A stretch of 64,000 bases of DNA from assembly GCF_021134715.1 (NCBI RefSeq), contig NC_060023.1, forward strand, positions 1,178,001-1,242,000, given 5' to 3'. The stretch is from Daphnia pulex. Taxonomy: Eukaryota; Arthropoda; Branchiopoda; Diplostraca; Daphniidae. This document shows, in pieces, positions 5,216 to 61,691 of this stretch. Within the stretch, counting starts at the first letter, position 1. Every line of letters begins with the position of its first letter. The position numbers and the translations under genes were made by a program. The notes beneath the pieces were generated by a model. It was not told the DNA's origin, did not search any database, and worked only from the letters and a program-made list of their open reading frames with translations.

Positions 5216-6354
5216 TTAAACGGGACATTGTTGATTTTGTCCTCGGAAGCTTCCCAGTGGACACTTGGTGCGCAGCTGGACTAGCGGTTTCGGTCTGGGC
5301 GGGAGGACGCAGTCCAGGGCTCCCGGAAAGTTGCGTCCCAACACTTGCCCTTCGGCGCAGGGTCCTCGGACTCCCAGTTGGAAGCACTGGGGTTTGGCAA
5401 CCAGAGGATCTTGACTCCAGTAGACGTGCTGGCCGTCGGCCGGGCAGTCGACGGGCACCTGCTCGCAAACGATTTTGCCTTCGGCGGACATGAACAACCA
5501 GGAGCCGTTTTGGCAGGGTCCCTGCTGGTTCAGCGGGTGGCACAGGCCGTCCACTTCGGTGAAGACCAACTGGCGTTCGTCGTCCATGCAGTCGCAGACG
5601 GCCCGGTTGTCCATCCCGTCGTAGAGGAGCATGTCTTTCTTGGAGGCGCAGGGATTGAGTTCAACCTCGGTCGATTCGACGATGACGCAACGTTTGGTTG
5701 GCGCGAAATACGATTCATCCGATGATGGACATTTGCGAGTTCTGAATCAAATTGAATTTTCATTTGGGAACGACTTGAATGAATTAAAATTGATGAAATA
5801 ATTACCCGGTCTTGAATCGCATCCGGGAGACGTCGCGTTTAAGTCCAGTGCGGATCCAGTGCTCTCGTTCCAGGGCTTCCGTGTCGTTGGCCAGGAGAAT
5901 TTGGTAATAGATTTTATCGCTGACGGCCACCAATTTCGGCCAGACTTTGTTGTTCAACTTGAAAAGGGACGACTGGACGTCGAGGAAATCGTTTTCGAAA
6001 ATATCCTCTTCAATGTCACGCTCCAGCTCGCCCAGGTCTCTCATCAATTTGGTTCGAATCTGCTCCAGGGTCAGCGGCACCTGGACCTCTTCGGACGAAT
6101 CGACGTCAAAAACTTCGAGGCTAATCGGATCGAAATCTTCGACCGAAAAAAGATCGGCCATCAACGGTCTGTTAATCAACACTGGGCCGTCGACCGGTGC
6201 CTGAGGCTGGAACCTGTATATTTAAATCATTAATTAAATAACTCAATGACAATTAAAATTAAATGTTATGTCAATATTCTTACGGTAATTGAGGTGCTCC
6301 GGAGCAGAGCGAAAATGAAATGGCGATGGCCGACAAGAGTAGAAAGAATGTCAT
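5216..6354 (-). CDS. Secreted Cys-rich protein, DUF4789-like (paralogue A)
   Basis: Three exons: 6284-6354, 5806-6213 and 5216-5741. They join in frame through GT-AG introns, both in phase 2, to give 334 residues. The start is the ATG opening a clear signal peptide (MTFFLLLSAIAISFSLCSG). Residues about 24-160 are acidic and alpha-helical-looking, with a VWPKL motif. Residues 160-334 are Cys-rich, with two GPC motifs (QQGPCQNGSWL and VRGPCAEGQVL), a DCPADGQHVYW segment and a CPLGSF...C end. The GPC/Cys layout resembles the arthropod DUF4789 family; this is from memory and was not searched. The function is unknown and extracellular location is inferred from the signal peptide. A paralogue with the same layout lies at 13571-14780. 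It has an extra intron before the first GPC motif, which this gene lacks. Confidence 0.85.
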
Positions 6355-16195: not shown

Positions 16196-17257
16196 TTAGA
16201 ACATCATGGGGCTACGCTTCCGTCTAGCGGCACCACCGGCTTCTGCGGCCTCAACTTCGGCGGCTTCAGCGGCTTCAGCTTCAGCAGCTTCGGCTGCCTC
16301 TGCCGGTTCGGCGGCTTCCACTTCGGCCTGTTCTGCTGCCTCGGCTGGTTCGACTTCTTCAATGGGTTCCTGTTCCACGGGTTCGACTTCCTCCCCGGCC
16401 ACAACGGCTGGAGCAGCGGCAGGAGCGGCAACTGGAGCAGCGGCCGGAGCAACTGCGGCCAATTGAGCTGCTTTGGCTTGAGCGTGAGCGGCGAAATGAG
16501 CGGCTTTAGCCTGAGTCACTTCCAGGGTGTCCTTGGGTGGCTCAAAGGTATTCACTGCGGCAACTGGAGTAGCAGCAACTGGGGTAGCAGCGACGGCAGG
16601 GGTGGCGACAGCAGCGGTGGCATCAGCAGCGGCACTGGTTCCTGCGGTGGCGGATGTTCCGGCGGATGCTTCAGCGGTGACGGTTTGACGCTTTCTCCTT
16701 GCAGCTCCGGCCTCTGCTTCAGCAGGCTCAGCCGCTTCAGCCTCAGCCGCTTCAGCTTCAGCTGCGGGTTCAGCCTCAGCCTCAGCTGCTGGCTCGGCTT
16801 CAGCTGGTTCGGCTTCAACTGGTTCGGCTTCAACTGGCTCGGCCTCGACGGGCTCCTCTTCCACCACTGGTTTGGCCTCGGTTTTGGCAGGAGCAACAGC
16901 AGGAGCGGCTTTCACTGGAGCAGGAGCAGCGGCAGCTGGCGCACCTTCCACCGGTTCAACTTCTTCGACCTCAACGGGCTCGGCTTCTTCAACCGGTTCG
17001 GCTTCACCAACAACTTTGGCAGGAGCGGCGGCGGCAGGAGCGGCGGCGGCAGGAGCGGCGGCGGCAGGAGCGGCGGCAGGAGCGGCAGCAGCGACAGCCT
17101 GTCGCTTACTATTAAAAATCAATTGGTATTAAATTAAATTCTTAAATTCATTTCATCTTGATTTCTGGAATGAAATTTACCTGAGAGAATGAGGCGCCGC
17201 CTGGATTGCTGTGAAGCAAACCAAGGCAGCAATGAGCAGAGAAAGATTAGACTTCAT
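16196..17257 (-). CDS. Furin-processed Ala/Glu/Pro-rich secreted proprotein 1
   Basis: Two exons (17181-17257 and 16196-17108) join in phase 2 to give 329 residues. Exon 1 encodes the signal peptide MKSNLSLLIAALVCFTAIQA followed by APHSL. The mature part starts SKRQA, then Ala/Pro-rich sequence, then acidic EPVEA and EAE repeats. An ARRKRQ site lies near residue 163. A Thr/Ala segment follows, then FEPPKDTLEVTQAKAAHFAA with HAQAKAAQLAAV, another acidic Glu/Ala/Pro run and a terminal ARRKRSPMMF. There are no cysteines after the signal. The RRKR sites fit the furin consensus, so the precursor is probably cut into two main pieces. The DTxEVxxAKAxHFAAHA segment is reminiscent of short motifs in arthropod cuticular proteins; this is from memory and was not verified. 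It is the smallest of three paralogues. Confidence 0.85.
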
Positions 17258-17720
17258 GTCAGGAGTTGGTTGGAAATGGAACTGATGCCGTTCAAACTCA
17301 ATCCACCGCCTTTTTAAAGGTAAACCTACGACTGCGCTGGGTTCACATTATGGCCATAGTCGCCAATTTAACCTTGGTAAATGCCGAACCAGCCACCCTT
17401 GAAAACGTGATGATGAAACTCCTTATTCAAAATCTGAATATATAAAGCCCCTAAAGGACTCGACTCTATGTCGAAGAATGCAGACACCGAAAAAAAGAAT
17501 CAGGAAATGGAGCAGTAGCTCTTAAAGGCCAGTCAATTTTATTATTTTTTGCTGGTACAAATTCATCACGATAAAACAAACAACTACGGTGTTGTAAAAC
17601 TAGGCGTTCCCGCGTGTGTAATACAATCCAAACAGCTTTGATTTCACGCTGAATAATCCCTTTGAAATCATAATAATGGCCTTTGGATTTTCCCACAGTC
17701 TGAGAAAAGTTTTGTTGTTC
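17258..17720 (-). repeat. Duplicated upstream flank, copy 1
   Basis: The 5' flank shares blocks with 25273-25930 and 28152-28830. These are the TATA region, a CCTAAAGG(A/T)CT block at about 17450 and an AGGAAAT..AG block with a GGCC(A/T) tract. There is also a GGCGTTCC block near 17605. A 92-codon minus-strand ORF (17600-17878) overlaps the end but has no recognised product. Confidence 0.6.
17311..17318 (-). promoter_or_regulatory. TATA-type box of proprotein gene 1
   Basis: TTTAAAAA (context CCTTTAAAAAGGCGG) lies 54 bp upstream of the ATG. The spacing and flanks are the same in all three paralogues. Confidence 0.65.
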
Positions 17721-20700
17721 TCCAGAGATGACCTGTTGAACAATAACAAAATCAATTCGACCTTGATGGTGTGGATCATTTCCTCATCTTGACTAAAGTA
17801 TTGAGCAATATAATCATAATTAGGATATAAGCCTATACAACGACGCAATATAATTTTTAGTTTCACTTCTGCTGCCAAGGCTGAACTGATTTCATTTTAT
17901 TTTGCCCTTCGATGTGACGACGTTATATAGGATTCAAGTTTATTTTGAAATCAGTGAAAACGGAAGTTGTAGGGCAACACGTGTGCAATACTGCGAAGGT
18001 AGCGACCGGCCAACATATACTTTCATTTCCACATAATGCTCCGAAATTAAGGATCGAAGTATAACCCATTTACCCAATTAGGAAATTTTAAAAAAGGTAT
18101 CCAATAACTGTTATATATGTGTCCGCTTTTAATAATAATAAATTAACACACCTCCCAATCGGGAAAGAGCACGATAGGCCACCACCAGGATTATATATCG
18201 TATATTGATTTGAGATTGTTTTCTATTATATCTCGCTGACCAAACCAAGAGCAAACGAGGCGAACCGGTATCGGCCATGAAATTTGCATTTCAGTCGCAC
18301 AGCACACGCCAACAACACGTCGACTAATAAACAGAATACAACAACACCATATTTTTTCCAATGTTTCAATTTCATTTGATTCCGGGAAATTTCGACCAAA
18401 TTCTCTATACGTTTTTAAAAAATCGATTGAGATTATAATAAAAAAAAAAAAGGAGCTCAAACCAAATTATTAGACGTAGCAAATAAGTCTGTCGTGAACC
18501 GCCCAAACAGGTTTGTCTTATTGTGGAAAGTCAGAGAATAAACCAGTTTTTATTAATATCGTTACTCATTTTCCAGCAAGTATATATACCAAATACAGAA
18601 ATGTTTTTCTAATTTCCAAGGTTTCCATTTCATTTTTTGTTTTGTTTTCATTCAGTGAACAGTTTAGTGATTAATGTCCATGTTTAGTAATATAGCCCGC
18701 TAAAAATTCCCGAATCAAAAATAAATGTGTTATAATAAAGCCAAAATAGCTAATGTCACAATCACGAAAGTGGGTCCGGTCGATTACAACTCACGTCCCG
18801 ATTCCGTGAAATCAATTGAAATGTTTTAGTTAAGTTAATATTAGAGCAGCAAGTGCGTCCGCGGTCTAAATCAGAACGCAAATGGTGCGGTCGGATTAGA
18901 ACGCCGATCTATAAATAAACTAAAGAGCCTGTCATAACAATGGACGAAAAATATCAAGGTCTTTTTGCTCAGTTTCTATTTATTAAGTTCTACTTGTTTT
19001 TTGTTATCGTCCATTCTTTTGTTTCTGCTCGAGTTCCGGCCGTGAGATTATAAACCGTCGCATGTGCTGGAGATGCTGGAAATGAAAAATCAAACAAGGC
19101 CATCACAAAAATGTTGCAGAGCTTTCGTGATTTCTATGAAAACAATTGTTTCACATTTTACTTGAACTCGACCGGTTTAATTGTTGTACAGCCGCGTATA
19201 AAAATGGACACTTGCAAGGTTGCATTCCCTTCCAGGAAATTGACGTCACATTTTTACGTGTCGTGATATTTCTGCCGTTTTGGGGGGCTGTCCATAATCG
19301 CCGTGACACGTTTAGCGGACGGAGAGGGGGGTTAGAAAATAAAAAAACAAAACTTTTAAATTTTAACCTAAAAGAGGAGGGGTCTGAATAATGGTATGGT
19401 TTTAAGGAGGGGTGAGGATATTTTTCATGATGGCCGTCACGAAAGAGGTGGGGTAAACTTCCTTACCTTTAGAAAAAAATTTAAATTTGTAGAGGGAAGG
19501 GTTTGAAAAATAGGGGGGGGGGATACCTTTCGTGACGGCCATCACGAAAAAAGGTGGGAGAGGTAGGGTTCAAATATCCTTTTCTCTTCCTAGGAAATAA
19601 TTACGATTTTCAATTGCTAAATTTACATGAAATTAAATAACTTTTAATGATAAATATTACGTAAGAAAGGTAGTGTTGAATTACAATTAAAGTTAAATGA
19701 AGTAACAATGACTAGCATTAAAAAAAAGGCTGGCCAATCACGGCGGCGGCAAGGTCGGCAAACTGAAATTTCAGGTTTTTCAATCGTCGTGTGTGTTTTA
19801 AAAAGTTTGCATCGCAGTTTATATGCGATTGTGCCGTAGTTTCACTTTCGTCGTTCACGATTATAGACAATACATAAACTTTCAAAAAACAGCTCACTTC
19901 AGGAAATGGTATCTCTATTTTTTGTTGTTGTTTTTAATTCGTGTTTTGTTTGTTAGTTGTTGTTGTTTGGAAAAAAAAATTCTCCGCTGCTGGGCGTTCT
20001 CTTTGGTTTTACCCACGTCAGTTTATGTGATATGTGAAAGCGAACATCAGCCATTTTTTGGTTGAGATTCCTTTAACTTAATTGGCTCATTTGCATAACT
20101 AGTGTAATACGGTAAAACATGTGAGTTATTTATGTTTTCAAAATGGGTGGGGATTTGTCTTATTTGTTAAAGATTCACTGTATACTTATTTATGCATGAA
20201 TAATTTTGAAATAATCTCACATGAATACGATTGCATTAGCCCACATTTTTGCGCATGCAAATCGAGTTATTTTACAGTTACTTTTCTTTTGTAATAATTC
20301 GAAATCCGAAAATATTGATCACGACTAGACTCGTAACTTTCTTTCTGCGTCTGCAAACGTGCCGAGTTTATTCTGCTGTTTCATTTTGTATTTGCTCACT
20401 CTCCTCTATTTTCGGCCATCGATTTTTTCGTCATGAGTAGTGGATTATTGATCGAGCTAGCTTGCCTCACCCAGTTAAATATTGAAGTGATAAAATGCTG
20501 AATAATTTGTCATTTTCTAAAGCTCCGAAAAGCTCCGAGTCACACACACACGTTTTGATTGTTCACCTTTCATTTCACGGACTGGACCTCCAACTTGTTT
20601 TTACGTGACTGACAGCATGGAGCACACGAGCTGCACAGGTTTTTATTTTTCTTATCTTTTACATTTGCTTTTATGTACTTTTTTTTTTTTTTCTCTCGAT

Positions 20701-20948
20701 AGGTTTTTATCGCCAGTGCAGTTTTTTTTTTCCGTCGTCCAACTCAAGGCTATTCGGCATAGGGTTGGGCTTTGGTTGCGTATGAGTAATTATGCGTACT
20801 AGTCTAGCCCCAGTTCTCGTCAATCTTCGTGATTTCTAGTTTGCGAAAGAATTCAGTAATTTTTAAAAATAATGACGTTACTCACAATCTAGTATTACGT
20901 AACTAGGCAAATATTCAAGTACTTTTGTAGACCGCCACTGAATGCTAC
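17721..20948. other. Intergenic
   Basis: No gene is supported. Two near-identical 18-bp near-palindromes (TCGTGACGGCCATCACGA type) lie at 19425-19442 and 19530-19547 in G-rich sequence. Confidence 0.5.
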
Positions 20949-21031
20949 ACCAGGTTGGCCGAGTGGTTAAGGCGCCAGACTTAAGATCTGGTCTCTGTAT
21001 AGAGACGTGGGTTCGAACCCCACACCTGGTA
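20949..21031 (+). tRNA. tRNA-Leu (anticodon TAA), copy 1
   Basis: A full type II cloverleaf is visible. The acceptor stem is ACCAGGT/ACCTGGT. The anticodon stem CCAGA/TCTGG closes the 7-nt loop CTTAAGA, giving anticodon TAA. A long variable arm (TCTCT/AGAGA) and the T arm GTGGG-TTCGAAC-CCCAC follow. The discriminator is A, as expected for Leu. No intron is present. Confidence 0.97.
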
Positions 21032-23844
21032 GAACTTCTTTTTTCAAGATTTTGTTTTATTTCGACGTTTTTGTGATTCTTTAAGAGAAAGTGTTAAGAA
21101 ATAGTTACTTTCCTATAGTTCTGCGACTTAAATTCGTCCGTATTTGAATTTTGGGGTATTAAAATGGAGAAATTCAAGGGTATTTGATTATTTGCTATAA
21201 ATATTCTCGTAAGTATGAAATATTCTACATATTCTAGAAACTTTTTCTGTTTATTTTTATTAATTTCAATTGGCCACTTGCATAACCGTGAAAGTTTTAA
21301 TTAAAGAAATGAGTTGATTTATCAACGATTAATTGTTTTAATCGCAATAAACCTTATTAGTCGTCACGTCGCTCTCTAACAAGTCCAGCAGCAAGGCAGC
21401 AACCAGCATTACCATAACGTAAATCCGCACATGGTGATTTAAACTTTCAAATCTGTGCGATCAATCAATAATACCGGTAGTAGTAAATATGTTATTTCCT
21501 TAATTGAATTTCCTCCATTAAATACAAGAAAATGTTGTTAGACGTCTTTGTGGTTTTATTTTGCGGACGTTTAGAAAACTGACAAACCCTTTTCCCGCAA
21601 TCACAACATATTTCATATTTGAGCGGTCCCTTTGACTGTTATGTCACGTTAACTGACAAGATGCAAATGAAGCTTTCGTTCACGTCCAATATGTCCTCAA
21701 CCTTCACCGACCGTGTCTAGTCATATCGATTTATGGATGGCCGATTGGCCGCATTGTCCTCCGTGACGACATATGATCATAGTCAATGTCAAACAACAAT
21801 CTCCCATAGTTTTTTGCATGGCAGAACATTTCCGATAACAACTGAATATATTCAATAAGCTGGATTTTGGTATGTGCGTGAATTTAGCGCTGGCGGCAAC
21901 TGTCGTAGGTTAGTGATGACGTCATCAATACCACTTGTCCCTCACCTTGACTTGACTTGCTGCTGTACAGATCGCGGGATGTAACGTCCGCAGTCGTTGT
22001 TATCGACTGCATGAGCCTGATTATCGTAATCATTTCCTCGGAGTCTAATTTCATCCGGGTTCACATTGCGTGATATTACGCAATCCATACATAATTAAGC
22101 AGACTTGTTATTGTTATTGCGATAGCTATGTAACACGATTTGTCTTTTCCGGATTTTTCCGACTTTCAAAGCATTTAAATTGATTTCCAGTCTATTAAAT
22201 TTATTTTTTACAATCAAATCAATGCCAAATAAGTCCGACGTTCTATTTTTTTACCGGCATCTGGGCATCTGAAATTGGATATTTGGAATTTTTATTGTTC
22301 GCCATCTGGCGATAAACATCATGATGACGTCAAGCATTCCGACAGCACGTAATTTGAAACCTTAAATTGTTTAGATTAATTTTTGACATTTGATGCCATT
22401 AGCCCAGTCATGGTTTTAAAAATTATGAAGCAAAATTCAGTCGTTGTTGCCTAATGTCAGATTTAGTTATTACAATTTTTAAAGGATTTAATAAGGCGTC
22501 AGAGATAAGATGCTTGTTTCCTTCCTAGAGAGTCTGGCAAATTGTTACTTTTCTTTGGTCTGTGCCTCTGTGGTAGGGGACTGAGTGTAACTTCATGAAG
22601 ATGAAATAAATCCCGATCCGTTCAGCTGATGTCGAACGCGGGAGGTCGATTTAATTTCTATCGATATTTAAGATTGGCTAATTTGAATATTAGTGTCGTC
22701 TGCTTTCTTTTTGTTTTCAACTTTCGAAAAAGAGACGAAAAAATTGAAAACAAATTACGAAATTTACAAAGAAAACGGAACGATCGAACGTGGCTGCACG
22801 AAAAATTGCACAACAAATCAAACTAGAAAAATGTGATCGTCGTGTTAACTCTGGTGTCGCGGCTCTCCATGCTTTCCACTTCATGCTGTTTGGCAGGTGA
22901 AGGTAAAGAATACAAATGGAATGATTATGAAAGCTTATTAAATAGAAGAGATAAACCTGTTCCAAACTTGTGAAATGTTAGTTTCTGACTAGCATTTATT
23001 GTGTTAGCCACCTGTTAATGCATGGTAGTTTGTTGGCACTTGCTGGACTGCTGGTATTAAACTGTCGTTAACATATCTCAGCATTATCGCTAGTGATTTG
23101 TGTTACTTTTATTCCTGCAACCTGCTAGAAATGTTAATGATGCATGACTTGCACAAATGCAGTGTATTACGCAAAAAATTCCCCTGTTTATTTAAAAATT
23201 GGGGTTTAACCCACTGTTTCGTTTTCAACTTTTCCTTATACTTGTTGTTTCTGCAAATATTTTTCATAACCCATTTTTATTTTTTATCTAGATAACCAAC
23301 ATCCCGTTTTCGCCTATGTCACCGATGTCACTCGAGTGGGACGGATCTCTTTCCTTAAATCCCCTCCTGTCCTCGTGTACACCCATGTGTGTGTGATGGG
23401 TGTATTCACGACGCCCTTTTTCCTATCCTACCTGGTATAATTCAACTATTCGTTAACCTCAACTTCGATATCTTCTTTTTTACCTCACAACTTTGTCTGT
23501 GGGTAAACAATCAAATTTGGAAACATTTTAACTTCATTAAACACTTCAGGCAAAGTGCAAGGCATCTACTCGTAATAATTATTTGAATGCAAATTAAGTG
23601 TATAGTGATAAGATAAAGGAACTAGTGATAATTTTTTAGATTTCAAAAATTGTATTTTGCACTCTTGCTTTTTTTGTTCTATTACAATTTACAACTAAGA
23701 AAAGAGACTAAATGTACAATAAAAATTTACACGTTTCAGCACCGTGAAAACTGAAAGGTGCATCAATGACTTTTTGTTTGCATCTGAATGTGGCTGCAAC
23801 TTCTTGCTTTAGCCAGATAGGAGTCGTTTTGGATCTCAAAAGAA
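21032..23844. other. Intergenic, 3' flank of proprotein gene 2
   Basis: No gene is supported. The last 150 bp or so match the 3' flank of proprotein gene 3, sharing a CTAAATGTACAAT tract, a TCAATGACTTTTT tract and a CATCTGAA.GTGGCT tract. Confidence 0.5.
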
Positions 23845-25272
23845 TTAAGCCCCGCGTCTTCTTCTTGCAGCACCTCCAGCTTCAGCAGCTTCGGCTGCCT
23901 CTGCTGCCTCTGCTGGTTCGGCGGCTTCCACTTCGGCCTGTTCCGCTGCCTCCGCTGGTTCGACTTCTTCGATGGGTTCCTGTTCTACGGGTTCGACTTC
24001 CTCCCCGGCCACAACGGCTGGAACGGCGGCAGGAGCGGCAACTGGAGCAGCAGCCGGAGCAACTGCGGCCAATTGAGCGGCTTTGGCTTGAGCGTGAGCG
24101 GCGAAATGAGCGGCTTTAGCCTGAGTCACTTCCAAGGTGTCCTTGGGTGGCTCAAATGGATTCACAGCGGCTACAACCGGAGCGACAGCAGCAACTGGAG
24201 TAGCAGCAACTGCTGGGGTAGCAACGACGGGAGCGGCGACAGCTGCGGTGGCGGCTTGACGCTTTCTCCTTGCGGCCTTTGCCTTGGCTTCAGCTTCTCC
24301 TGCGGGTTCGGCTTCAGCTGCTTCCGCTTCCACCGGCTCTGCTTCCACTGGCTCAGCTTCCACTGGTTCAGCTTCCACTGGCTCAGCTTCCACTGGCTCG
24401 GCCTCGACCGGCTCGACTTCTTCAACTGGTTCGACTTCAGTTACTTCCACTGGTTCGGCCTCAGGATCAACGGGAGTAGAGACAGCGGCTGGGACTGCAA
24501 CAGGAACTGCAGCAGCGGGAGCAACAGCAGCAGCAACTGGGGTAGCAGCAACTGGGGCAGCAGCAACTGGGGCAGTAACGGCGGGGGCAGCGGCTTGACG
24601 CTTTCTCCTTGCGGCTCCTGTTGCAGGTTCCACCTCGGCGACTTCGTTTTCAGCAACCTCCACTGGCTCGGCTTCAACTGGCTCAGCTTCGACTGGCTCG
24701 GCTTCGACTGGTTCAGCTTCGACTGGCTCGGCTTCCACTGGCTCGGCTTCTTCAACTGGTTCGACTTCAGCCACCTCCACTGGTTCAGCCTCAGGATCAA
24801 CGGGAGTAGAGACTACGGCAGGAGCAGCGGATGGGACAGCTGCAGCGACGACAGCGACTGGAGTCGCTGCTGGAGCAACAACTGGGACAGCTGGAACGGG
24901 AGTCACCTGGATGACGGCAGGAAGGACAACAGCGGGAACAACGGTTGGCGCAGCGGTGATGGCTAGCGAAGGTGTAGCGACAACAGCCTTGTCTTCAATT
25001 TTCGTAGAAGGAGCCACCACAGCCGGAGTTGCAATTTTGGCCGGCGCAGAAGCAACAATCACTTCAGATTTGACAGGAGTTGTTGTCTGACGCTTATTCA
25101 GGTTTCTATCAATCAAAACATTTAATTCAAATTAATTCCAGTTCAAACAATTTGTCTTATGTTTCAGCAGTGATTATTCAATCAAACTAACTCACCTGAT
25201 GGAGTGTGGCGCCGCCTGGATTGCTGTGAAGCAAACCAAGGCAGCAATGAGCAGAGAAAGATTAGACTTCAT
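23845..25272 (-). CDS. Furin-processed Ala/Glu/Pro-rich secreted proprotein 2
   Basis: Two exons (25196-25272 and 23845-25105), joined in phase 2, give 445 residues. The signal exon is essentially identical to that of proprotein 1 (MKSNLSLLIAALVCFTAIQA). The mature part begins near NLNKRQTTTP. A Val/Pro/Ala/Thr-rich stretch and acidic EPVEA repeats end in AARRKRQ. A second Ala/Pro/EPVEA module also ends in AARRKRQ. A third module holds NPFEPPKDTLEVTQAKAAHF and ends in AARRRRGA at the C-terminus. There are therefore three furin-type sites plus an N-terminal KR. Two of the downstream pieces would start with Gln, which can cyclise. Module order and sequence match proproteins 1 and 3. Role unknown; secretion is well supported. 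Confidence 0.86.
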
Positions 25273-25930
25273 GTCTGGAGTTGGTTGGAAATGGAACTGA
25301 TGCCGTTCAAACTCAAATCACCGCCTTTTTAAAGGTAAACTTACGACTGCTGGATGACTATGACATTCCCTTTGCCACCGTCTCGCCTTCAACCTTGGTA
25401 TAATTTTCTACCGACAAGGTAACCATGAACATGGCTGGTGCAATAATATGAATGTAGTTTGTAAGCCCCTAAAGGTCTATTATTTTTGTCCAACAATGAA
25501 TGCACAAAACTCGACCAGGAAATCCAGTAGACGGTTAAGGGCATCAGGCTCAATATTTAGTCTGACGCAATCTCAACAAAAATAAATATTTGCTGGTAGT
25601 TAGGGTTAAGTTAATTGGGAGATTAAACGTTATGACAGACTACCCGAACATTAATGCTAATAAACTTTTCGCTTGCGTTTCGAGTCGATGATCATGACCT
25701 GATCAATAATTTTTCTCGCTAACCTTAATGGGTTTTTCCCCCTTTACTTTTTCTTCTACATCATTAGATTGCGTGTAATGGTTTCCGCGTACAGGATAAT
25801 ATTGATAGAAATGATAGAATGGCTTTTTTAAAATTGTATTTTCAAGACTCATGCCAAGGCTTTTGAGAACTTTCTTTATTATTTTGGGGGACATTTTATC
25901 AGGGTTGAATTTTTTTGTTTAGCGCAATCA
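25273..25930 (-). repeat. Duplicated upstream flank, copy 2
   Basis: Shared with copy 3 (28152-28830): AGCCCCTAAAGGTCT, GGAAATCCA, GGTTAAGGGCATC, CTAACCTTNNTGNNTTTCCC, TTTCCGCGT, CCAAGGCTTTT and TTATCAGGG blocks, in the same order. Some blocks are also in copy 1. Short, frame-broken minus ORFs at 25703-25894 and 25879-26064 may be remnants of an unrecognised gene. Confidence 0.65.
25326..25333 (-). promoter_or_regulatory. TATA-type box of proprotein gene 2
   Basis: TTTAAAAA in the context CCTTTAAAAAGGCGG lies 54 bp upstream of the ATG. Confidence 0.65.
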
Positions 25931-26656
25931 AAATACCCGACCATACATTTTTGCCCTAATAAAATTAATAACTGCGTTGATGCTTGTACATTTGGCCATG
26001 AAGTTACGTTAGCCGAATGGGAAAGTATTATTGTAGAAATAAAAGTTTTGGGTTTAAGTGCCAATAAGTTCTGTCGAATTTATTCCCTTCATTCCAACTT
26101 GTTTAAAAAAATAAGCGCAGATGTATATCATGAATTGTTCTGTCTAATTTCGATCGATTTGCGGATGGGAATGGAATCGAGTGGCAAACGATTCAGATGT
26201 CGACGAATACCAGTAATATTAGACGAACATTTAGTATCTTGTTATGTAATTGGATATTGGTAATAATTATTAATGATCTAATGAAGACCCTCATAATAGT
26301 CCAACTTTTGATATTGAATAGAAAGTTAGTTTTACCGGACTAGAAAAGTATAAATGGACTAAATAAGTTGTAACCGAGAATCAATTTGACAGACAATTTA
26401 GGAAACACCAAAATTGAAAACAAGGGTACAAACGAATAAGTTTTTGAATGTTGTATTTCGCAACGCTAAACTGGGTTTGAATAGTGTCAAAACTAAATGT
26501 ACAATTAAAAAAGAATTAGAAATTCTGCATGAAGAAAACTGAAATATGCGTCAATGACTTTTTTACATCTGAAAGTGGCTATAATATTGCTGGACGACTA
26601 ACTGCATGCCATAGCCTGAAGAAATAATTCTTTTTTTTTTTTTTATCTCAAAGGAA
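25931..26656. other. Intergenic between proprotein genes 2 and 3
   Basis: No gene is supported. The last 170 bp or so are the duplicated 3' flank described for the upstream paralogue. Confidence 0.5.
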
Positions 26657-28151
26657 TTAAGCCCCGCGTCTTCTTCTTGCAGCACCTGCGGCTTCAGCTT
26701 CAGCTGCCTCTGCTGCCTCTGCCGGTTCGGCGGCTTCCACTTCGGCTGCCTCCGCTGCCTCTGCTGGTTCGACTTCTTCAATAGGTTCCTGTTCCACGGG
26801 TTCGACTTCCTCCCCGGCCACAACGGCTGGAGCAGCCGCAGGTGCGACAGGTGCGGCAACGGGAGTGACGGCCGGTAAAACTGCGGCCAATTGAGCGGCT
26901 TTGGCTTGAGCGTGAGCGGCGAAATGAGCGGCTTTAGCCTGAGTCACTTCCAGGGTGTCCTTGGGTGGCTCGAATGGATTCACAGCGGCTACAAGCGGAG
27001 CGACAGCAGCAACTGGAGTAGCAGCAACTGCTGGGGCATCAGCAACTACTGGGGTAGCAGCGACGGCAGGGGTGGCGACAGCAGCGGTGGTGGTGGCTTG
27101 ACGCTTTCTCCTTGCAGCTTGTGTCTTAGCTTCAGCTTCTGCTGCGGGTTCGGCTTCAGCGGCTTCAGCCAGTTCAGCGGCTTCGGCCTGTTCTGCTGCC
27201 TCGACTGGTTCGACTTCTTCAATGGGTTCCTGTTCTACGGGCTCGACTTCCTCCCCGGCCACAACGGCTGGAACGGCGACAGGAGCGGCAACTGGAGCAG
27301 CGGCTGGTGCAACTGCGGCCAATTGAGCGGCTTTGGCTTGAGCGTGAGCGGCAAAATGAGCGGCTTTAGCCTGAGTCACTTCCAGGGTGTCCTTGGGTGA
27401 CTCGAATGGATTCACAGCGGCAACAACCGGAGCGGCAGCAGCAACTGGAGTAGCGGCAGCTGGGGTAGCAGCGACGGCAGGGGTGGCGGCTTGACGCTTT
27501 CTCCTTGCGGCATTTGCCTTGGCTTCAGCTTCTCCTGCGGGTTCGGCTTCAGCTGCTTCCGCTTCAACCGGCTCTGCTTCCACTGGTTCAGCCTCAACCG
27601 GCTCGGCTTCTACCGGCTCGGCTTCTACCGGCTCGGCTTCTTCAACTGGTTCGACTTCAGCTACTTCCACTGGTTCGGCCTCAGGATCAACGGGAGTAGA
27701 GACTACGGCAGGAGCAGCGGATGGGGCAGCTGCAGCAACAACAGCGACTGGAGTCGCTGCTGGAGCAACAACCGGGGCAGCAACAGCAGGAGTCACAACT
27801 GCGACGGCTGGGGCTGCCACTGGAACGACAGCGGCGGGAGCAACAACTGGGGCTGCTGGAACGGGATTCACCTGGATGACGGCAGGAAGAACAACAGCGG
27901 GAACAACGGCCTTTTCCGCAGTTTTCGGAGCGGGGACTTCGACTTTGGCAGGTGCAGTTGGTTCAGATTTTACAGGAGTCGTTGCTTGACGCTTATTCAG
28001 AATTCTATTCAGAAATCAATTGGCATTAATTAAATTCTTAATTTACTTCTTTTAATGTTTTGAATGAAATTTACCTTAGAGAATGAGGCGCCGCCTGGAT
28101 TGCCGTGAAGCAAACCAAGGCAGCTAGGAGCAGAGAAAGATTAGACTTCAT
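26657..28151 (-). CDS. Furin-processed Ala/Glu/Pro-rich secreted proprotein 3
   Basis: Two exons (28075-28151 and 26657-28004), joined in phase 2, give 474 residues. Translation of exon 2 stays open from the acceptor: RILNKRQATTPVKSE leads into the Val/Pro/Ala-rich stretch. The protein has the shared signal peptide, EPVEA repeats and an AARRKRQ site. Next comes a module with NPFESPKDTLEVTQAKAAHF and acidic Glu/Ala repeats ending in AARRKRQ. A second copy of the same module (NPFEPPKDTLEVTQ...) ends in the terminal AARRRRGA. It therefore carries two copies of the FEPPKDTLEV module, against one in proproteins 1 and 2, a direct sign of module duplication. There are no cysteines outside the signal. 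Function unknown. Confidence 0.86.
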
Positions 28152-32400: not shown

Positions 32401-32528
32401 ATGTCGCATCCCAACCATCCAACAGGTGAAATAGCGCTCATTGTTGTTTAGACAGCTGTGAAAAATGTCGCATCCCAACCACCCAACAGGTGAAATAGCG
32501 CTCATTGTTGTTTAGATAGCTGTGAAAT
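32401..32528 (+). repeat. 64-bp tandem duplication
   Basis: Two adjacent 64-bp copies (32401-32464 and 32465-32528) differ at only a few positions. Each contains CAACAGGTGAAATAGCGCTC and GTTGTTTAGA. They end about 85 bp before the TATA box of the next gene, so they could act as a promoter-proximal element. Confidence 0.9.
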
Positions 32529-47138: not shown

Positions 47139-48284
47139 TTAATATTTAGGGTAGGCAGCAGGAGCTTGGTAGGCTGGAGCTTGGTAGGCTGGAGCAGTGT
47201 AGGCTGGAGCAGTGTAGGCCGGTTTTTTGTATTCAGGAGCCTTGTAGGCAGGGGCAGCGTAGGAAGCAGCAGCTTTGTATTGGGACTCAACGTACTCGGG
47301 GTACTTGGCTTCGCCTTCGTATTTCACGTCAGCGGTGTATCCGTTGGCGTCAGCCTTGTAGGTGACGATCTGGACGCGGCTGTCGGGGAGAACCACACGG
47401 TAAGATCCGGTGACAACATTGTAGTCAGATTTTTCGTTGTGCTCGAAGTCAGTGTAAGATTCTTTATCCTGGACATCGTATCCGAAGCTGTAGGGTTGAG
47501 CGGCCTAAAAAAGTGGCAATTCAACGACGAAGATGAATTATTTTCATTACTTACGTAATTTTAATCATGGAAGTTGTTTAATTGAACTTAAACTTACGTA
47601 TGTGACTTCTTCGTATTTAGGAGCCTCGTACTTGGGGGTCTCGTACTTAGGGGCTACGTATTTAGGAGACTCGTACTTAGGGGCTTCGTACTTAGGGGTC
47701 TCGTACTTGGGGGTCTCGTACTTGGGGGTCTCGTATTTAGGAGCCTCGTATTTAGGAGCCTCGTACTTAGGGGTCTCGTACTTAGGGGCTACGTATTTAG
47801 GAGCCTCGTACTTGGGAGTCTCGTATTTAGGAGCTTCGTACTTTGGTGCCTCGTACTTAGGAGCTACGTACTTTGGTGCTTCATATTTAGGAGCCTCGTA
47901 CTTGGGGGTCTCGTACTTTGGTGCTTCATATTTAGGAGCCTCGTACTTCGGGGTCTCGTACTTTGGTGCTTCATATTTAGGAGCCTCGTACTTTGGTGCT
48001 TCATATTTAGGAGCCTCGTACTTTGGTGCCTCGTACTTTGGGGCCTCGTAGGAATTCGCAGCAGCGACGGCGAAAAGAGCAACGAGTATGAAGAACTGTA
48101 ATTTAATACAAAATTTATAATTACCCAAGTTATAAAATATTATTGATATCATAGAAATGTTTTGAATCTCGAAACAAGCGAATAGAAAAAAAAAACAGTG
48201 TGGTTTTCTCAAATTTGGTTGTCTTTACAGGCACTTTCTCCTAATCGTTCAACTCGAAAATTCTACAGTTGTGGTTACCTTCAT
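47139..48284 (-). CDS. Chitin-binding RR cuticular protein with YxxPK repeat
   Basis: Three exons (48279-48284, 47598-48095 and 47139-47504) give 289 residues, with both introns in phase 0. Exon 1 encodes only Met-Lys, a typical layout for cuticle genes. Exon 2 completes the signal peptide (FFILVALFAVAAANS). It then encodes about 29 pentapeptides of the form Y-(E/V)-(A/T/S)-P-K, ending in EEVTY. Exon 3 holds the Rebers-Riddiford chitin-binding domain: AAQPYSFGYDVQDKES, GSYRVVLPDSRVQIVTYKAD and ANGYTADVKYEGEAKYP. It ends in APAY(Q/K/T) repeats. The domain binds chitin in the cuticle and the Tyr-rich repeats may be crosslinked. An expected Gly in LPDGR is Ser here (LPDSR). Confidence 0.93.
47611..48047 (-). 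repeat. 15-bp coding repeat (YEAPK pentapeptides)
   Basis: About 29 tandem 15-bp units encode Y-E-A-P-K variants. Alternation of Ala, Thr and Val at position 3 or 2 forms higher-order 30-45 bp patterns. It is not a CRISPR array: there are no unique spacers and the frame is coding. Confidence 0.95.
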
Positions 48285-48359: not shown

Positions 48360-51257
48360 GGAAACAAGAGTGATAGCTTATGGCAATAAGGGAGGGGACG
48401 TTTTGGGGCTAAATCGGTATCGAGCGAAAGTAATTGTGTAACGGATGGATATCGCCAAAAGAAAACCGTAATCTAAAACACCGGTTAATATTAGATGAAA
48501 TAGAAAAATAAATCAATGGATAGAGAACTCGCCTATCTATTTTGATATTATGATTTGATTCTAATTTGATTATCTGTTTCCGTGGAATTGACCAAAATTC
48601 TTTAGAAATATTATAATTCATAGGGGCATTCATCAAGGCATAGAACGATTTCTTACCTTATTTAATTTAAAAAAGGCGGTCGTATTGTCTTATTTCGTGA
48701 TATCCTTCTCTTTATTTATTCTCGCGTTGTTTGTCTTCTAAATGATCTCAAGGATCTCTATGATAAAATAAAAATGAAATAAATGTAAATAGTTGAGGTG
48801 TATCCGGCTACCCGCATACCTTTTTTGTAATCGGCTGTGAATTCTGTAGGGAGTACTGAATAGTCCGGCCAGTAAGAATGCCACAAAATTTAATCCTAAG
48901 AAAATGGTAAAAAAATTATTATGAAAATGGTTTTAATTCAACTCCTTTATCCCCCGTAACAGTAATACTCGTTTTCGAGTGCTATTGTTATTTTGGCACA
49001 CCCAAGATTCAAGGTGCATGTGCAAATGACATACATCCTTGTACTAGCTTCATTATGTTGCTAACAGCAAAAGCCCATAGCTCGCCATGATATTCAAATC
49101 CCGGTCAGTGTCGCAAATCGTCCAATTCTTTCTCATCAAACCTGTTGAAACGACGCCTAAAGCAGTACTATCCCATCTATTTGAATGAATCAGCACCAAT
49201 CCAGCAACTTTTATTGGATCACCTTGCTACTTCACTTTTACTAGAAAGTGTATCAAGTAGGTCAACTTACAAATCGTATAATTTTTCAAAAGATTTTTAA
49301 CCACTATGGTAAATTTCAAAATAAAATCTTATTATGTTATTTTGACCAATTCAAATGTCAGCTTATTTAATAAATTAAATTACCTATCTATGCAATAGCG
49401 TGCGTGTCTGAAACAGTGTCATAACTCCCGGCCATGGGTCGTAGGTAGAATCTATACGAATGACTTTGGAATGAATGTGCATTATTATACAGCCGGGTTT
49501 GTGATTCTGTTTCCAAGAGTGTAATCACAACTGAGAATGTTAGAAAAAATCAATTTAAGAGTAAATACGTACGTATACGTGTAAAAATATTCTTGGAATA
49601 AAGAGAAAAACTTTCTCTCTCATTTGTTTCTCTTTTTCTGTTTCCGATAATTTCTCGAAAAAGGAACTCTGATGGCTATCGCTATTTTTAAGAATAGAAA
49701 GTGACAGCCCATTAGTATCTGAACGTCTCAATTTTCTTGCCAACATTCCGACTCTCTTCATCTTTCACTACTTCCTTAAAAAGCTTCTTGCTAATCGGCT
49801 ACCCTTCATCCAGTTCATAACGTCAATTCAAATTATTCCCTTTTTACGAAAAAATGCTAACGAAAGAAACTAATACGAATCCTTAAAAAAAAATGTTGAA
49901 GAATTTTCCCAACCACCTTTCTTATTTATCTGATTACTTAAGAATAAACGACATCGTTACCATTGCAAGTAGGGTGTGGTCCAGGGCGAACGTTTGTTGC
50001 AGGCGAAGTTTCACATATCCGGACAGCAACGAATAGCATTTTAACAAAGCATTCTCGTGCTAAGAAACCTGAATACAAATTTCGGCTCCTTCAAGAGAGA
50101 AGATATTATTTTATATACGTTGATCATAAGTTGGGTAATACAAATTTCTCAGAATACATATTTCAATGGATGTTTTTTGTCACCTTTTTTGGGCATTATT
50201 TGATAAAGTAAGCCATTCAAAAGAATTTGAATAAATTAATAAAATATAGTTTAAGAGGGCAAACCACCTTGCCTAAAGTGTCAAGGCATCCATGAGATGC
50301 AAGTTTCAAAATGGATAACAGTTTGAAACATTTGAACTGGGTTGGGATTGAATAATGACATTGCTTCATTCATTGTTGGTTTGGTTGGGATTGAATAATG
50401 ACATTGCTTCATTCAATGTTGGTTTTTAAACAGAACAGGGGACAATATTAAAGGGGAATAATTCAACTTGAAAAAAAAAAAAAAAATCTTAAGCCCTATG
50501 AAGAGGAAAAGGGGTCAATATGCTATACAATAAGTTAAGGTTCAATGTAAGTTTAAGAAAGTTCTTTACTCAATTTCATTTTTAAATCTCTAGCTATCGG
50601 AGTGGTGGAATGACCGACCACAGAATTACTGAAAGTCAAGAGGAAAAAGGGCCACAGAAAAAAGTGAGCTGAGATACCTACTTGTAATTCGTACAATATT
50701 TACAAACTCCCTTGTTGTTATTTACCTTAGAAACTGGGTCTGGAAACCCATGGGTTTACCCAAACGCCAAAATCATTTTAAAATGTTGATTTGTGTAGCG
50801 TGGATGTAGCACACATTCTTGAAAAAAGATCTGATGTAAACAAGTTTGTAAAGAAATAATCTACTAAATTGTTACTATGGTTAAAATACTCATTTTCAAG
50901 ACAACAACATTATTGTCACTTTTTGAAGGCACACGATCGGTTCGGGTGAAAGGGAGTCGTCTAGATACTTGGGTATCGATAGGTACCTGCTTGAACAAGG
51001 AAACCTGCATACAGAATATGTGTTCGTTTTAACGATGAGAATCAAGTACTTCAAGCAAAGTTGTTTGTTGATTTAAAATCGCCGGCCCTATTAGAGGATT
51101 AAATAGTTAAAGAACTTTCCTTGCACAAGACGATTTTAATTTCACAAAAGCCACACCAACACACAAATTTCCGTTCAGGGATTGCTTGTTTAAATATGAA
51201 ATAGAAAGAGTTAGTCAACTTACAGAACACGGAGGTTTACATTAGAAACTCAACACT
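48360..51257. other. Intergenic
   Basis: No gene is supported. Short AT-rich ORFs at 48409-48636, 49555-49761 and 49963-50211 lack domains and splice context. Confidence 0.45.
50341..50426 (+). repeat. 43-bp tandem duplication
   Basis: Two adjacent copies (50341-50383 and 50384-50426) of a unit starting GTTGGGATTGAATAATGACA are almost identical. Confidence 0.9.
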
Positions 51258-59291: not shown

Positions 59292-61691
59292 TTAGTTGCT
59301 GGTCGGTGCTGCTGTGGTGGTGGTGGTCGTGACGAAATCGTCAGCTATGACCGTGACCAACATTGCGGATGCTTCCGCCATCATGTAGTCCTCCTCGTCA
59401 TCTTCGTTGTCGTCCGTTGGTAATCGGCACTCGACTTCGTGTTTGGGCAGACAGCGGCTGTGCTGGCCGCTGAATCGTTCGCTGCGTGTGCAGCGTCCAG
59501 CTGGACCGTAGGGACGGCCCGATCGGCAGTAAAGATAGCCCCGGCATCCAGGGTAATTGTGGTCGAGGTACAGGCCGTTTGTTCTTCCAGCGCATGGACT
59601 CTGGACCGAATGGGTTCGACCTTCGGTTGCAACCGGATCGCTGCAAGTCACTCGGCGGCTATCGGCGCATCTGCGACCGTCAAACAGCTGGCCAGCCGGG
59701 CAACTCAAATCGGTTTGGACTTGGCCCAAACAGAGGTAGTAATTCCGGCATCCCGATTGCCTATCCGGGTAGACTCCGTCCGATTTGCCTTGGCAATCCG
59801 ATTTGTGGCTGGATTCCGGACAAGTGTACTGGGCTGGATCGACGCAGACCTGGCCGTTGAATACCGTGTCGCCCGAACACTGAAGATCAGACCTCGATCC
59901 GCCTATGCAGATGTAATAATTCCGGCATCCGGTTCCCTGGACAACGAAGAATCCGTAATTCTTTTCGCAGTAATCTTTGGCGGAAGAATTCGCCGGACGG
60001 CCGGTTGTTGTTGTTGTTACGCTGTTCCGGCTGCTGACGAAATAAGTTTGCGGATGGGAAGCTGAGCCGGAAGGCTTCCGGGCGGATCCAGCTGAAGGGT
60101 AAGAGTAATACGAATCCAAATAGACGGATCCAGCGGTGACTTTGGGCCGTTCGGTCGTCGTCATCAAGTCGGACGATGGGCATCGGTACTGATCCGGATC
60201 GACGCATTTCTTGCCGTCAAACAACCGTCCGTCTGAGCAAGTCAACGTGATGAGTTTGTGGCCGTCCCCGCTGCAAAAGTAATAATTCCGGCAGCCGGAA
60301 TTCAAGTCGGCCTGGTAGCCATTGCTGACGGTAGCTCCTCCTCCCAGTTGGCAGTCGGGAGAACTGTACGGGCAAGTGTAGACGTCCGGTTCGACGCATC
60401 GCTGCCCGTCAAACAGCGACTTGCCTGGGCAGACGTAAACGGCCTTCATTCCGCCGGCGCAGTAAAAGTAACTCCGGCATCCGGATTCACCATCCTGATA
60501 ATAACCGTCCGCCCTTCCATCGCAATTTTTCGGTCCATTATTCGCCGCCTATCGAAAATCAATGGCGCGAAAATTCAAATTTTTAAATTTTGGCGCTCAA
60601 ACAATTTCAAAAATTTGAAATTTTATACCTCATTTTTAGTTTCGACTGGACTGGCCAGTGGTGACGGTGCGGGCAAAGAAGATGGCACAGCCGATTCAAT
60701 GATGGTTGTCGAGTTGTTGTTGTTGGGATGACACTGATACTCGCCGGGATGGACGCACCGCTGGCCATTGAAAACCAGTTTACCCGGACACAGGTAAATG
60801 GACTTTCCGCCATTGGGTCCGCATCGAAAGTAACGGCGGCACTTGGAGCCCGGCTCGACGGCCGCGTAATTGTCGCTCTGTCCCCGGCAGTAATCTGGCG
60901 GGCTGACCGTCGTGAATCGTGCGACAGCATCTCGCGTTGTTGTCGCTGTCGCTGCGGTCGTCGTGATGGATGGGCCGCCGACCCGATGGGCGGATGTGAC
61001 AGTAGCAGCCGAACTGCTCGTCTCCGTCGTCGTCGTGGGGTTATTGGTGCCGTCTAAACCCGGATGGTGGACGCTGGCATGTCGATGGAACGGTGCCAAG
61101 GTGCACGAGACCCTCAGCAAGGACGACGTCAAGAAAACTACACACGAGAAACCAAAAGAAAATGACGTCAATACAACAACAACAACAACAACAACCAATT
61201 TGCGCCAAGGGAAAAAAAAAGGAAAAAGTGTCGGACATTTTTGATTGACAGTCACGCCGAGGGAAACTCCCTTTCTGCCCATCATCACAACAAAAGAAAA
61301 CTACCGGATCTGATTGTTGGTAGGCGCTTAAACTAATCTACATATTTCTGCTTTTGGGTGTCCTAGGATCCGGTTGAAGGTAAAAAAATAAAATACCTCG
61401 GGATAATATTATATTATTATCGCCTATAGTCTACGGAATTAGTTGGCGGCCGATTGTTCATTCAGTGGCACACTGACCCGCTTCTTCTTCTTCTTTCGTT
61501 ATAAGTTTATACCATTGGGAGGAAGGGCAAAAAGGATCAATGTGTATCAGCCAACACCTGGCGGGGCTTTGGAAATTCAAAAATCTCGGCCGTCTGTCAG
61601 CCTTGGACTGTATCGAAACAAATGAAATCATTTTTTGAACATAAATTAAAATCGGCTTACCATTAATTAAGGCAATCAGCAGACGATTCAT
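59292..61691 (-). CDS. Secreted protein with six CBM14 (peritrophin-A) chitin-binding domains
   Basis: Three exons (61661-61691, 60629-61137 and 59292-60548) give 598 residues. Splicing exon 1 into exon 2 creates a proper signal peptide (MNRLLIALIN + VFLTSSLLRVSCTLA). A Thr/Ser-rich linker leads to six CBM14 domains with the six-Cys pattern C-x(n)-C-x5-C-x(n)-C-x(12)-C-x(n)-C. Each has a GCR(N/S)Y(Y/F)xC or CRRYFRC core and an LFDG(Q/K/R)(R/K)C core. Domain 1 ends exon 2; domains 2-6 fill exon 3. Thr-rich linkers (TTTTTGRPA) separate domains 3 and 4. The tail is acidic (DDNEDDEED) and Thr-rich. CBM14 binds chitin, so it is probably a cuticle or peritrophic-matrix component. No transmembrane anchor is seen. 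Starting at an ATG inside exon 2's upstream extension is possible but gives no good signal peptide. Confidence 0.92.

Follow-up and report, generated by a model that had tools for sequence, protein, structure and literature searches.

Tandem 18-residue-motif proteins of Daphnia pulex, probable cuticular matrix precursors built of convertase-bounded acidic blocks

An 18-residue consensus, (P/V)xDTPEVAAA(K/R)AA(H/F)xAA(H/Y), is printed as a cuticular motif in three papers (PMC2542385, PMC7497268, PMC13073896; these and all other papers are cited for individual passages). The motif occurs in Bombyx CPH30 and CPH31, which are classed as 'hypothetical cuticular' and not as R&R proteins (PMC2542385), is often present in RR-3 proteins (PMC7497268, where Andersen 2000 is cited) and has been used to find genes of an '18aa family' (PMC13073896). 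Furin-type processing is described for the cuticle collagens of nematodes (PMC13225626, PMC11304992, PMC10538796) and for mollusc Pif (PMC3091754). Among the open-access papers listed, we found no account of such processing for arthropod cuticular proteins and no description of Daphnia or crustacean proteins of this kind (18-residue motif, cuticle protein 18.7, furin); where PMC3886914 mentions furin, the passage concerns a prediction step only. Here we describe three tandem genes in a 64,000-nucleotide stretch of the Daphnia pulex genome (the window, NC_060023.1:1,178,001-1,242,000, whose numbering is used throughout; the genome searched has 133.19 megabases (Mb) in 13 contigs). Their products combine a form of this motif with repeated furin-type sites, and we think it likely that they are tandem-duplicated cuticular matrix proteins of the 18-residue-motif kind, lacking an R&R domain and made as convertase-cut precursors of acidic blocks.

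The genes occupy 28151-16196 on the minus strand. Each has two exons, a signal-peptide exon being followed by a short intron and one large exon:

28075..28151, minus strand: gene 3 exon 1, leader and start of the propeptide; followed by a GT..AG intron of 70 base pairs (bp), frame kept
26657..28004, minus strand: gene 3 exon 2 including the stop codon (open frame, gene model; whole protein 474 amino acids)
25196..25272, minus strand: gene 2 exon 1 (gene model)
23845..25105, minus strand: gene 2 exon 2 including the stop codon (gene model; whole protein 445 amino acids)
17181..17257, minus strand: gene 1 exon 1 (gene model)
16196..17108, minus strand: gene 1 exon 2 including the stop codon (gene model; whole protein 329 amino acids)
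17181..17330, minus strand: core promoter, leader and exon 1, near-identical in the three genes (genome search and alignment; TTTAAAAAGG, then CATCAGTT)

The A of the start codon lies at 28151 in gene 3, 25272 in gene 2 and 17257 in gene 1, and the last base of the gene 1 stop codon is 16196; the outer coordinates of the original prediction made for this locus were exact. Exon 1 measures 77 bases in each gene, and the introns of genes 1, 2 and 3 (72, 90 and 70 bp) all keep the reading frame. All three proteins begin with the leader MKSNLSLL(I/L)AALVCFTAIQA, a hydrophobic stretch (MKSNLSLLIAALVCFTAIQA) judged by eye, without a signal-peptide program. The single Cys of each protein lies within this leader, so the mature parts are free of Cys; overall composition is 29-38% Ala, 13-17% Glu, 11-13.5% Pro and 10-17.5% Val. 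A genome search with the 150-bp promoter, leader and exon 1 stretch returned three matches at an expectation value (E) of ≤0.01, one per gene, with 95-100% identity. The three genes are close tandem duplicates, so that the features they have in common, the eight blocks described below included, are not independent evidence.

What links these proteins to the cuticle is a module of 37 codons, present once in genes 1 and 2 and twice in gene 3 (one of the gene 3 copies reads FESPKDTLEVTQ):

16451..16561, minus strand: gene 1 module, 37 codons, holding the 18-residue cuticular motif (motif, profile)
24061..24171, minus strand: gene 2 module, 37 codons, same motif (motif, profile)
27311..27421, minus strand: gene 3 module copy 1, 37 codons, same motif (motif, profile)
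26879..26989, minus strand: gene 3 module copy 2, 37 codons, same motif (motif, profile)

The module, PKDTLEVTQAKAAHFAAH, is a variant of the published 18-residue motif. All four copies match 13 of the 16 specified positions of the consensus. In Ala-rich proteins this count alone is not overwhelming, the highest score among 4000 shuffles being 12 for gene 1 and 11 for genes 2 and 3, and a profile is the better test. The profile was built from 54 motif copies in 14 of 17 relatives, eight of the 14 being named insects; P0001, P0009 and P0010, which are Daphnia or Daphnia-like, were excluded. It scores genes 1, 2 and 3 at 44.4, 43.8 and 43.7 bits, whereas the highest shuffle scores were 17.0, 12.6 and 14.8; in none of the three genes did any of 5000 shuffles reach the real score. 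A database search with the gene 3 module region returned 17 proteins at E≤1, headed by a cuticle protein 18.7-like protein of the beetle Nicrophorus vespilloides (E = 3.4e-12). Five of the 17 bear the name of cuticle proteins; counting those with Chitin_bind_4 as well brings the number to 11. Compared over their 111 bp, the module copies differ by a non-synonymous divergence (dN) of 0-0.024 and a synonymous divergence (dS) of 0.04-0.21, values that are indicative only and do not separate gene conversion from purifying selection.

Like other 18-residue-motif cuticular proteins (CPH30 and CPH31, the '18aa family', cuticle protein 18.7), the window proteins have a leader and the motif at 13 of 16 positions, in a class for which R&R is not required; unlike them, they add RRKR↓Q sites between blocks and long EPVEA runs (here and below, the arrow marks the bond at which a convertase would cut). 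They carry one or two motif copies, as against three to six in the 14 other relatives. A Pfam search matched none of the three proteins to a family at E≤1. The R&R (Chitin_bind_4) domain was absent by the same search, and membership of CPR was rejected on that ground. NCBIfam returned one match only, at E = 0.084 and far below the family cut-off, and a search of the PDB by sequence returned none at E≤1. Insect apidermins and other AAP(A/V) cuticular proteins (defined in a passage of PMC7497268) resemble the window proteins in their high Ala content and AAPA/V tetrapeptides, but their definition lacks EPVEA runs and repeated RRKR; this likeness is compositional only, low complexity preventing a test of homology.

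The second feature of the family is its series of basic sites. Behind the leader of each protein lies a short propeptide with KR↓Q at its end; two blocks (gene 1) or three (genes 2 and 3) follow. Blocks are parted by AARRKRQ, and the last is closed by AARRKRSPMMF in gene 1 and AARRRRGA in genes 2 and 3. There are eight RX(K/R)R sites (2, 3 and 3 in genes 1, 2 and 3), five of them internal ARRKRQ and three C-terminal:

16688..16699, minus strand: gene 1 internal RRKR↓Q site (site scan)
16214..16225, minus strand: gene 1 C-terminal RRKR↓S site (site scan)
24598..24609, minus strand: gene 2 internal RRKR↓Q site 1 (site scan)
24259..24270, minus strand: gene 2 internal RRKR↓Q site 2 (site scan)
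23854..23865, minus strand: gene 2 C-terminal RRRR↓GA site (site scan)
27494..27505, minus strand: gene 3 internal RRKR↓Q site 1 (site scan)
27101..27112, minus strand: gene 3 internal RRKR↓Q site 2 (site scan)
26666..26677, minus strand: gene 3 C-terminal RRRR↓GA site (site scan)

The C-terminal sites (RRKRSPMMF, RRRRGA and RRRRGA) each stand two to five residues from the end of the protein, and the N-terminal KR↓Q is present in all three proteins besides the RX(K/R)R sites. Gln follows five of the eight RX(K/R)R sites and all three N-terminal KR sites. The observed site counts were matched in 1, 0 and 0 of 20000 shuffles for genes 1, 2 and 3; so rarely reached, the number of sites is beyond chance for proteins of this composition. 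A guessed 17-base codon pattern for RRKRQ, searched across the D. pulex genome, gave no match. In all eight blocks the first residue is Gln and the last two, before RR(K/R)R, are Ala-Ala; four of the blocks hold a module. Without the basic tail they measure 109-161 amino acids and contain 20-32 Asp+Glu residues, mostly Glu with very little Asp. Their computed isoelectric point (pI) is 4.05 in seven blocks and 4.08 in one, 4.05 being the lowest value that the program returns, so that true values may be lower. On these points the original prediction was borne out: it had described three secreted, nearly Cys-free proteins of Ala/Pro/Val and acidic stretches, one module each in genes 1 and 2 and two in gene 3, and ARRKRQ sites fitting the furin consensus, with most internal pieces expected to start with Gln.

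Are motif and cut site joined in the window genes alone? Twenty loci were taken from the 68 matches of a genome search with P0010 (LOC124199457, D. pulex) and compared with 30 loci of top-scoring R&R matches plus another 20 R&R loci, the latter picked mainly for long frames. The 70 frames, picked by match coordinates, comprised 66 distinct ones after removal of four duplicates (L016, L021, L034, L064). An RX(K/R)R site was present in 15 of the 18 frames with the motif and in 3 of the 48 without it (Fisher p = 2e-9), and among frames of at least 180 amino acids in 15 of 18 versus 3 of 22 (p = 1.6e-5). The sample is biased and non-independent, which makes both p-values too optimistic. Gln follows 16 of the 20 sites in the counted frames. 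Locus L046, a 99% match to P0010, has a single exon that contains the motif twice, together with SRKKRQ and an R&R domain. Loci L047-L050 combine the motif with R(K/N)KR, and a pattern search modelled on L046 found no R&R signature in them. All five are like the window proteins in their motif, Ala/Val/Pro-rich linker and R(K/N)KR site, and L047-L050 also in having no R&R signature, in which L046 differs; they are unlike them in having a single cut site each, no EPVEA runs and a Tyr/Phe-rich part after the site. L047-L050 could possibly represent a step between CPR proteins and the window family. At another locus (L065, match C8:8557435-8557773), the repeated VAKTTLKT...VVTPLA blocks of an R&R-type frame are flanked by three RX(K/R)R↓Q sites, a second multi-block design in D. 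pulex. Of the 14 non-Daphnia relatives, several of which look mutually orthologous, 11 show a dibasic or furin-like site at least once, and five have a strict RX(K/R)R. The site is thus not unique to the window genes.

How might such proteins be made and used? We suggest that epidermal cells would secrete the precursors and that a furin-type convertase would cut at KR↓Q and RR(K/R)R during secretion; the D. pulex genome gave eight matches to convertase P-domain stretches, of which two contain in-frame stops. Trimming by a carboxypeptidase and formation of pyroglutamate would then yield two or three blocks per protein, each probably a disordered Ala/Pro/Val segment followed by a Glu-rich tail, with a helical 18-residue module added in four of the eight. 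Once in the chitin matrix, the blocks would probably assemble through the module with other cuticle proteins bearing the motif, and the acidic tails would serve as hydrating spacers or may bind calcium in the mineralised carapace. The cuticle collagens of C. elegans that are cut by BLI-4 are comparable in that their proper secretion depends on a furin-type cut (PMC10538796, PMC13225626), and when their sites are mutated secretion fails or is poor (PMC13225626, PMC10538796; review PMC11304992); they differ in being collagens, in their N-terminal cut and in their unrelated sequence. More tentatively, and with somewhat less than even confidence, we propose that Daphnia makes a whole class of 18-residue-motif cuticular proteins as RX(K/R)R↓Q-cut precursors. 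The window family would be the extreme, consisting of true cuticle polyproteins from which several pyroglutamate-capped acidic blocks are cut, and a convertase would set the time at which shell matrix components can assemble.

The original prediction had offered two designs, a matrix protein cut into blocks and a polyprotein releasing similar acidic peptides, and knew no described family with this layout. The first design fits best, because the module is a known cuticular motif and RX(K/R)R↓Q sites of the same kind are present in motif-bearing cuticle-type proteins elsewhere in this genome; the cutting itself is predicted from sequence. The second holds if large blocks are meant and fails for hormone- or neuropeptide-like products, given low-complexity pieces of such length. 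That no described family is involved is contradicted by the Ala/Pro-rich composition and by the module, which a profile of the motif from 14 relatives places, at about 44 bits, with a described cuticular motif; it perhaps stands for the exact combination of several cut sites and EPVEA runs without R&R, of which we found no account among the open-access papers listed.

Several observations weigh against our interpretation of the genes as precursors of cuticular matrix blocks. The p-values are inflated because the motif set was found with a protein having both features, because tandem paralogues were counted repeatedly and because multi-exon genes were scored on the matched exon alone; moreover, three loci have the motif without the site (L051, L061, L063) and three the site without the motif (L062, L067, L081). 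A full-length BLASTP comparison of gene 3 with P0010 was not significant, and the case for homology therefore depends on a motif of about 24 residues. Searched whole, the gene 3 protein gave one match over 4% of the query among the roughly 8000 candidates listed, and the gene 1 region gave none at E≤0.1 among a similar number listed (~8000). These candidate lists were probably filled by Ala/Pro words, and since the whole gene 3 search missed the cuticle protein 18.7-like match that the module region found, little can be read into a missing match. The fold model of gene 3 is poor (three sequences, mean predicted local distance difference test (pLDDT) 46, predicted template modelling score (pTM) 0.21); at this low confidence it places helices in both modules (211-234, 352-378), in two acidic tails (289-309, 432-449) and at 2-10, with coil elsewhere. 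Finally, the leader was recognised by eye only.

The surroundings of the three genes include an R&R cuticle exon in the window (47313-47498, minus strand), and at least ten more R&R exons lie on the same contig at 0.4-1.76 Mb (150 of 331 candidates scored). Next to the R&R exon of the window, a frame at 47565-48224 (minus strand) repeats a 15-base unit, reading APKYE/TPKYE, about 29 times in tandem; neither its CTD match nor its Extensin match reaches the family cut-off. Two frames at 59292-61300 (minus strand) have CBM_14 chitin-binding domains, with five stretches in one and one in the other. A frame with DUF4789 (E = 5.7e-23) lies at 5216-5746 on the minus strand, and two-copy tandem repeats with 96-97% matches were seen at 32401-32527 (64 bases) and 50340-50425 (43 bases). 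A fourth secreted acidic gene, outside the interval of the original prediction, runs from 11883 to 9680 on the minus strand and was modelled with three exons and 651 amino acids. Its product has a leader and two basic sites, AERRKRN at the end of an acidic run and DARKRS, together with three FEVHDL...HETLP modules and a tail rich in E, G and K. No 18-residue motif above 20 bits was detected in it (window frames of at least 80 amino acids were scanned and its first part was checked separately), and its last exon matched no Pfam family at E≤0.1. A relative of this gene lies at C7:1009627-1010328.

Other explanations were weighed. One proposal is that the genes encode calcium-binding or mineral-stabilising precursors, in which the EPVEA runs do the work and the blocks, released by cutting, stabilise amorphous calcium carbonate in the carapace, after the fashion of mollusc Pif. 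The blocks have a computed pI of 4.1 or lower with 20-32 Asp+Glu each, and the carapace of Daphnia magna is α-chitin and protein with embedded amorphous calcium carbonate (PMC7772340). A furin-type site is likewise described in the shell matrix precursor Pif-177 (PMC3091754). The likeness to Pif is by description alone. The Pif precursor has recognisable extracellular domains, whereas the Daphnia proteins have no Pfam domain at E≤1, and membership of Pif was rejected for that reason. The blocks, moreover, are rich in Glu and very poor in Asp. We regard this proposal as doubtful though worth keeping in mind; it is compatible with a cuticular matrix function and does not exclude it. The regular alternation of acidic runs and basic clusters in the three proteins could instead mean that the RRKR runs stay uncut and act as positive stickers, pairing with the Glu runs so that the intact matrix protein coacervates or becomes cross-linked. 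Yet the sites agree with the furin consensus, D. pulex cuticle-type proteins that lack long acidic runs have RX(K/R)R↓Q as well, and a C-terminal site two to five residues from the end makes more sense for trimming than for cross-linking, so we consider uncut stickers unlikely.

Where the protein acts is a separate matter. A structural, low-complexity secreted protein with CBM_14 frames nearby might belong to the eggshell, the ephippium or the gut lining instead of the body cuticle. Both the motif and the presence of R&R genes nearby argue for cuticle, although the ephippium is itself a modified carapace; a location of this other kind seems to us distinctly unlikely. A leader, repeated basic sites and similar Gln-first blocks would also suit precursors of secreted signalling peptides, each RRKR-bounded block being hormone- or neuropeptide-like. 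Neuropeptide precursors hold short peptides between basic sites, often amidated, with Gly as the amidation signal. Here low-complexity blocks of 109-161 amino acids contrast with such short products, all eight end in Ala-Ala before the basic run and not in Gly, and the module is a cuticular protein motif. A signalling role is thus very improbable, and a neuropeptide precursor was rejected on block length and motif.

Set against the known 18-residue-motif cuticular proteins, the family departs from them by its repeated convertase sites, and its interest is raised by the link between motif and RX(K/R)R↓Q across the D. pulex genome. If motif and cut site are truly linked, the assembly of arthropod cuticle would have in processing a control step open to testing, in an animal whose carapace defence and mineralisation are already studied (PMC7772340).

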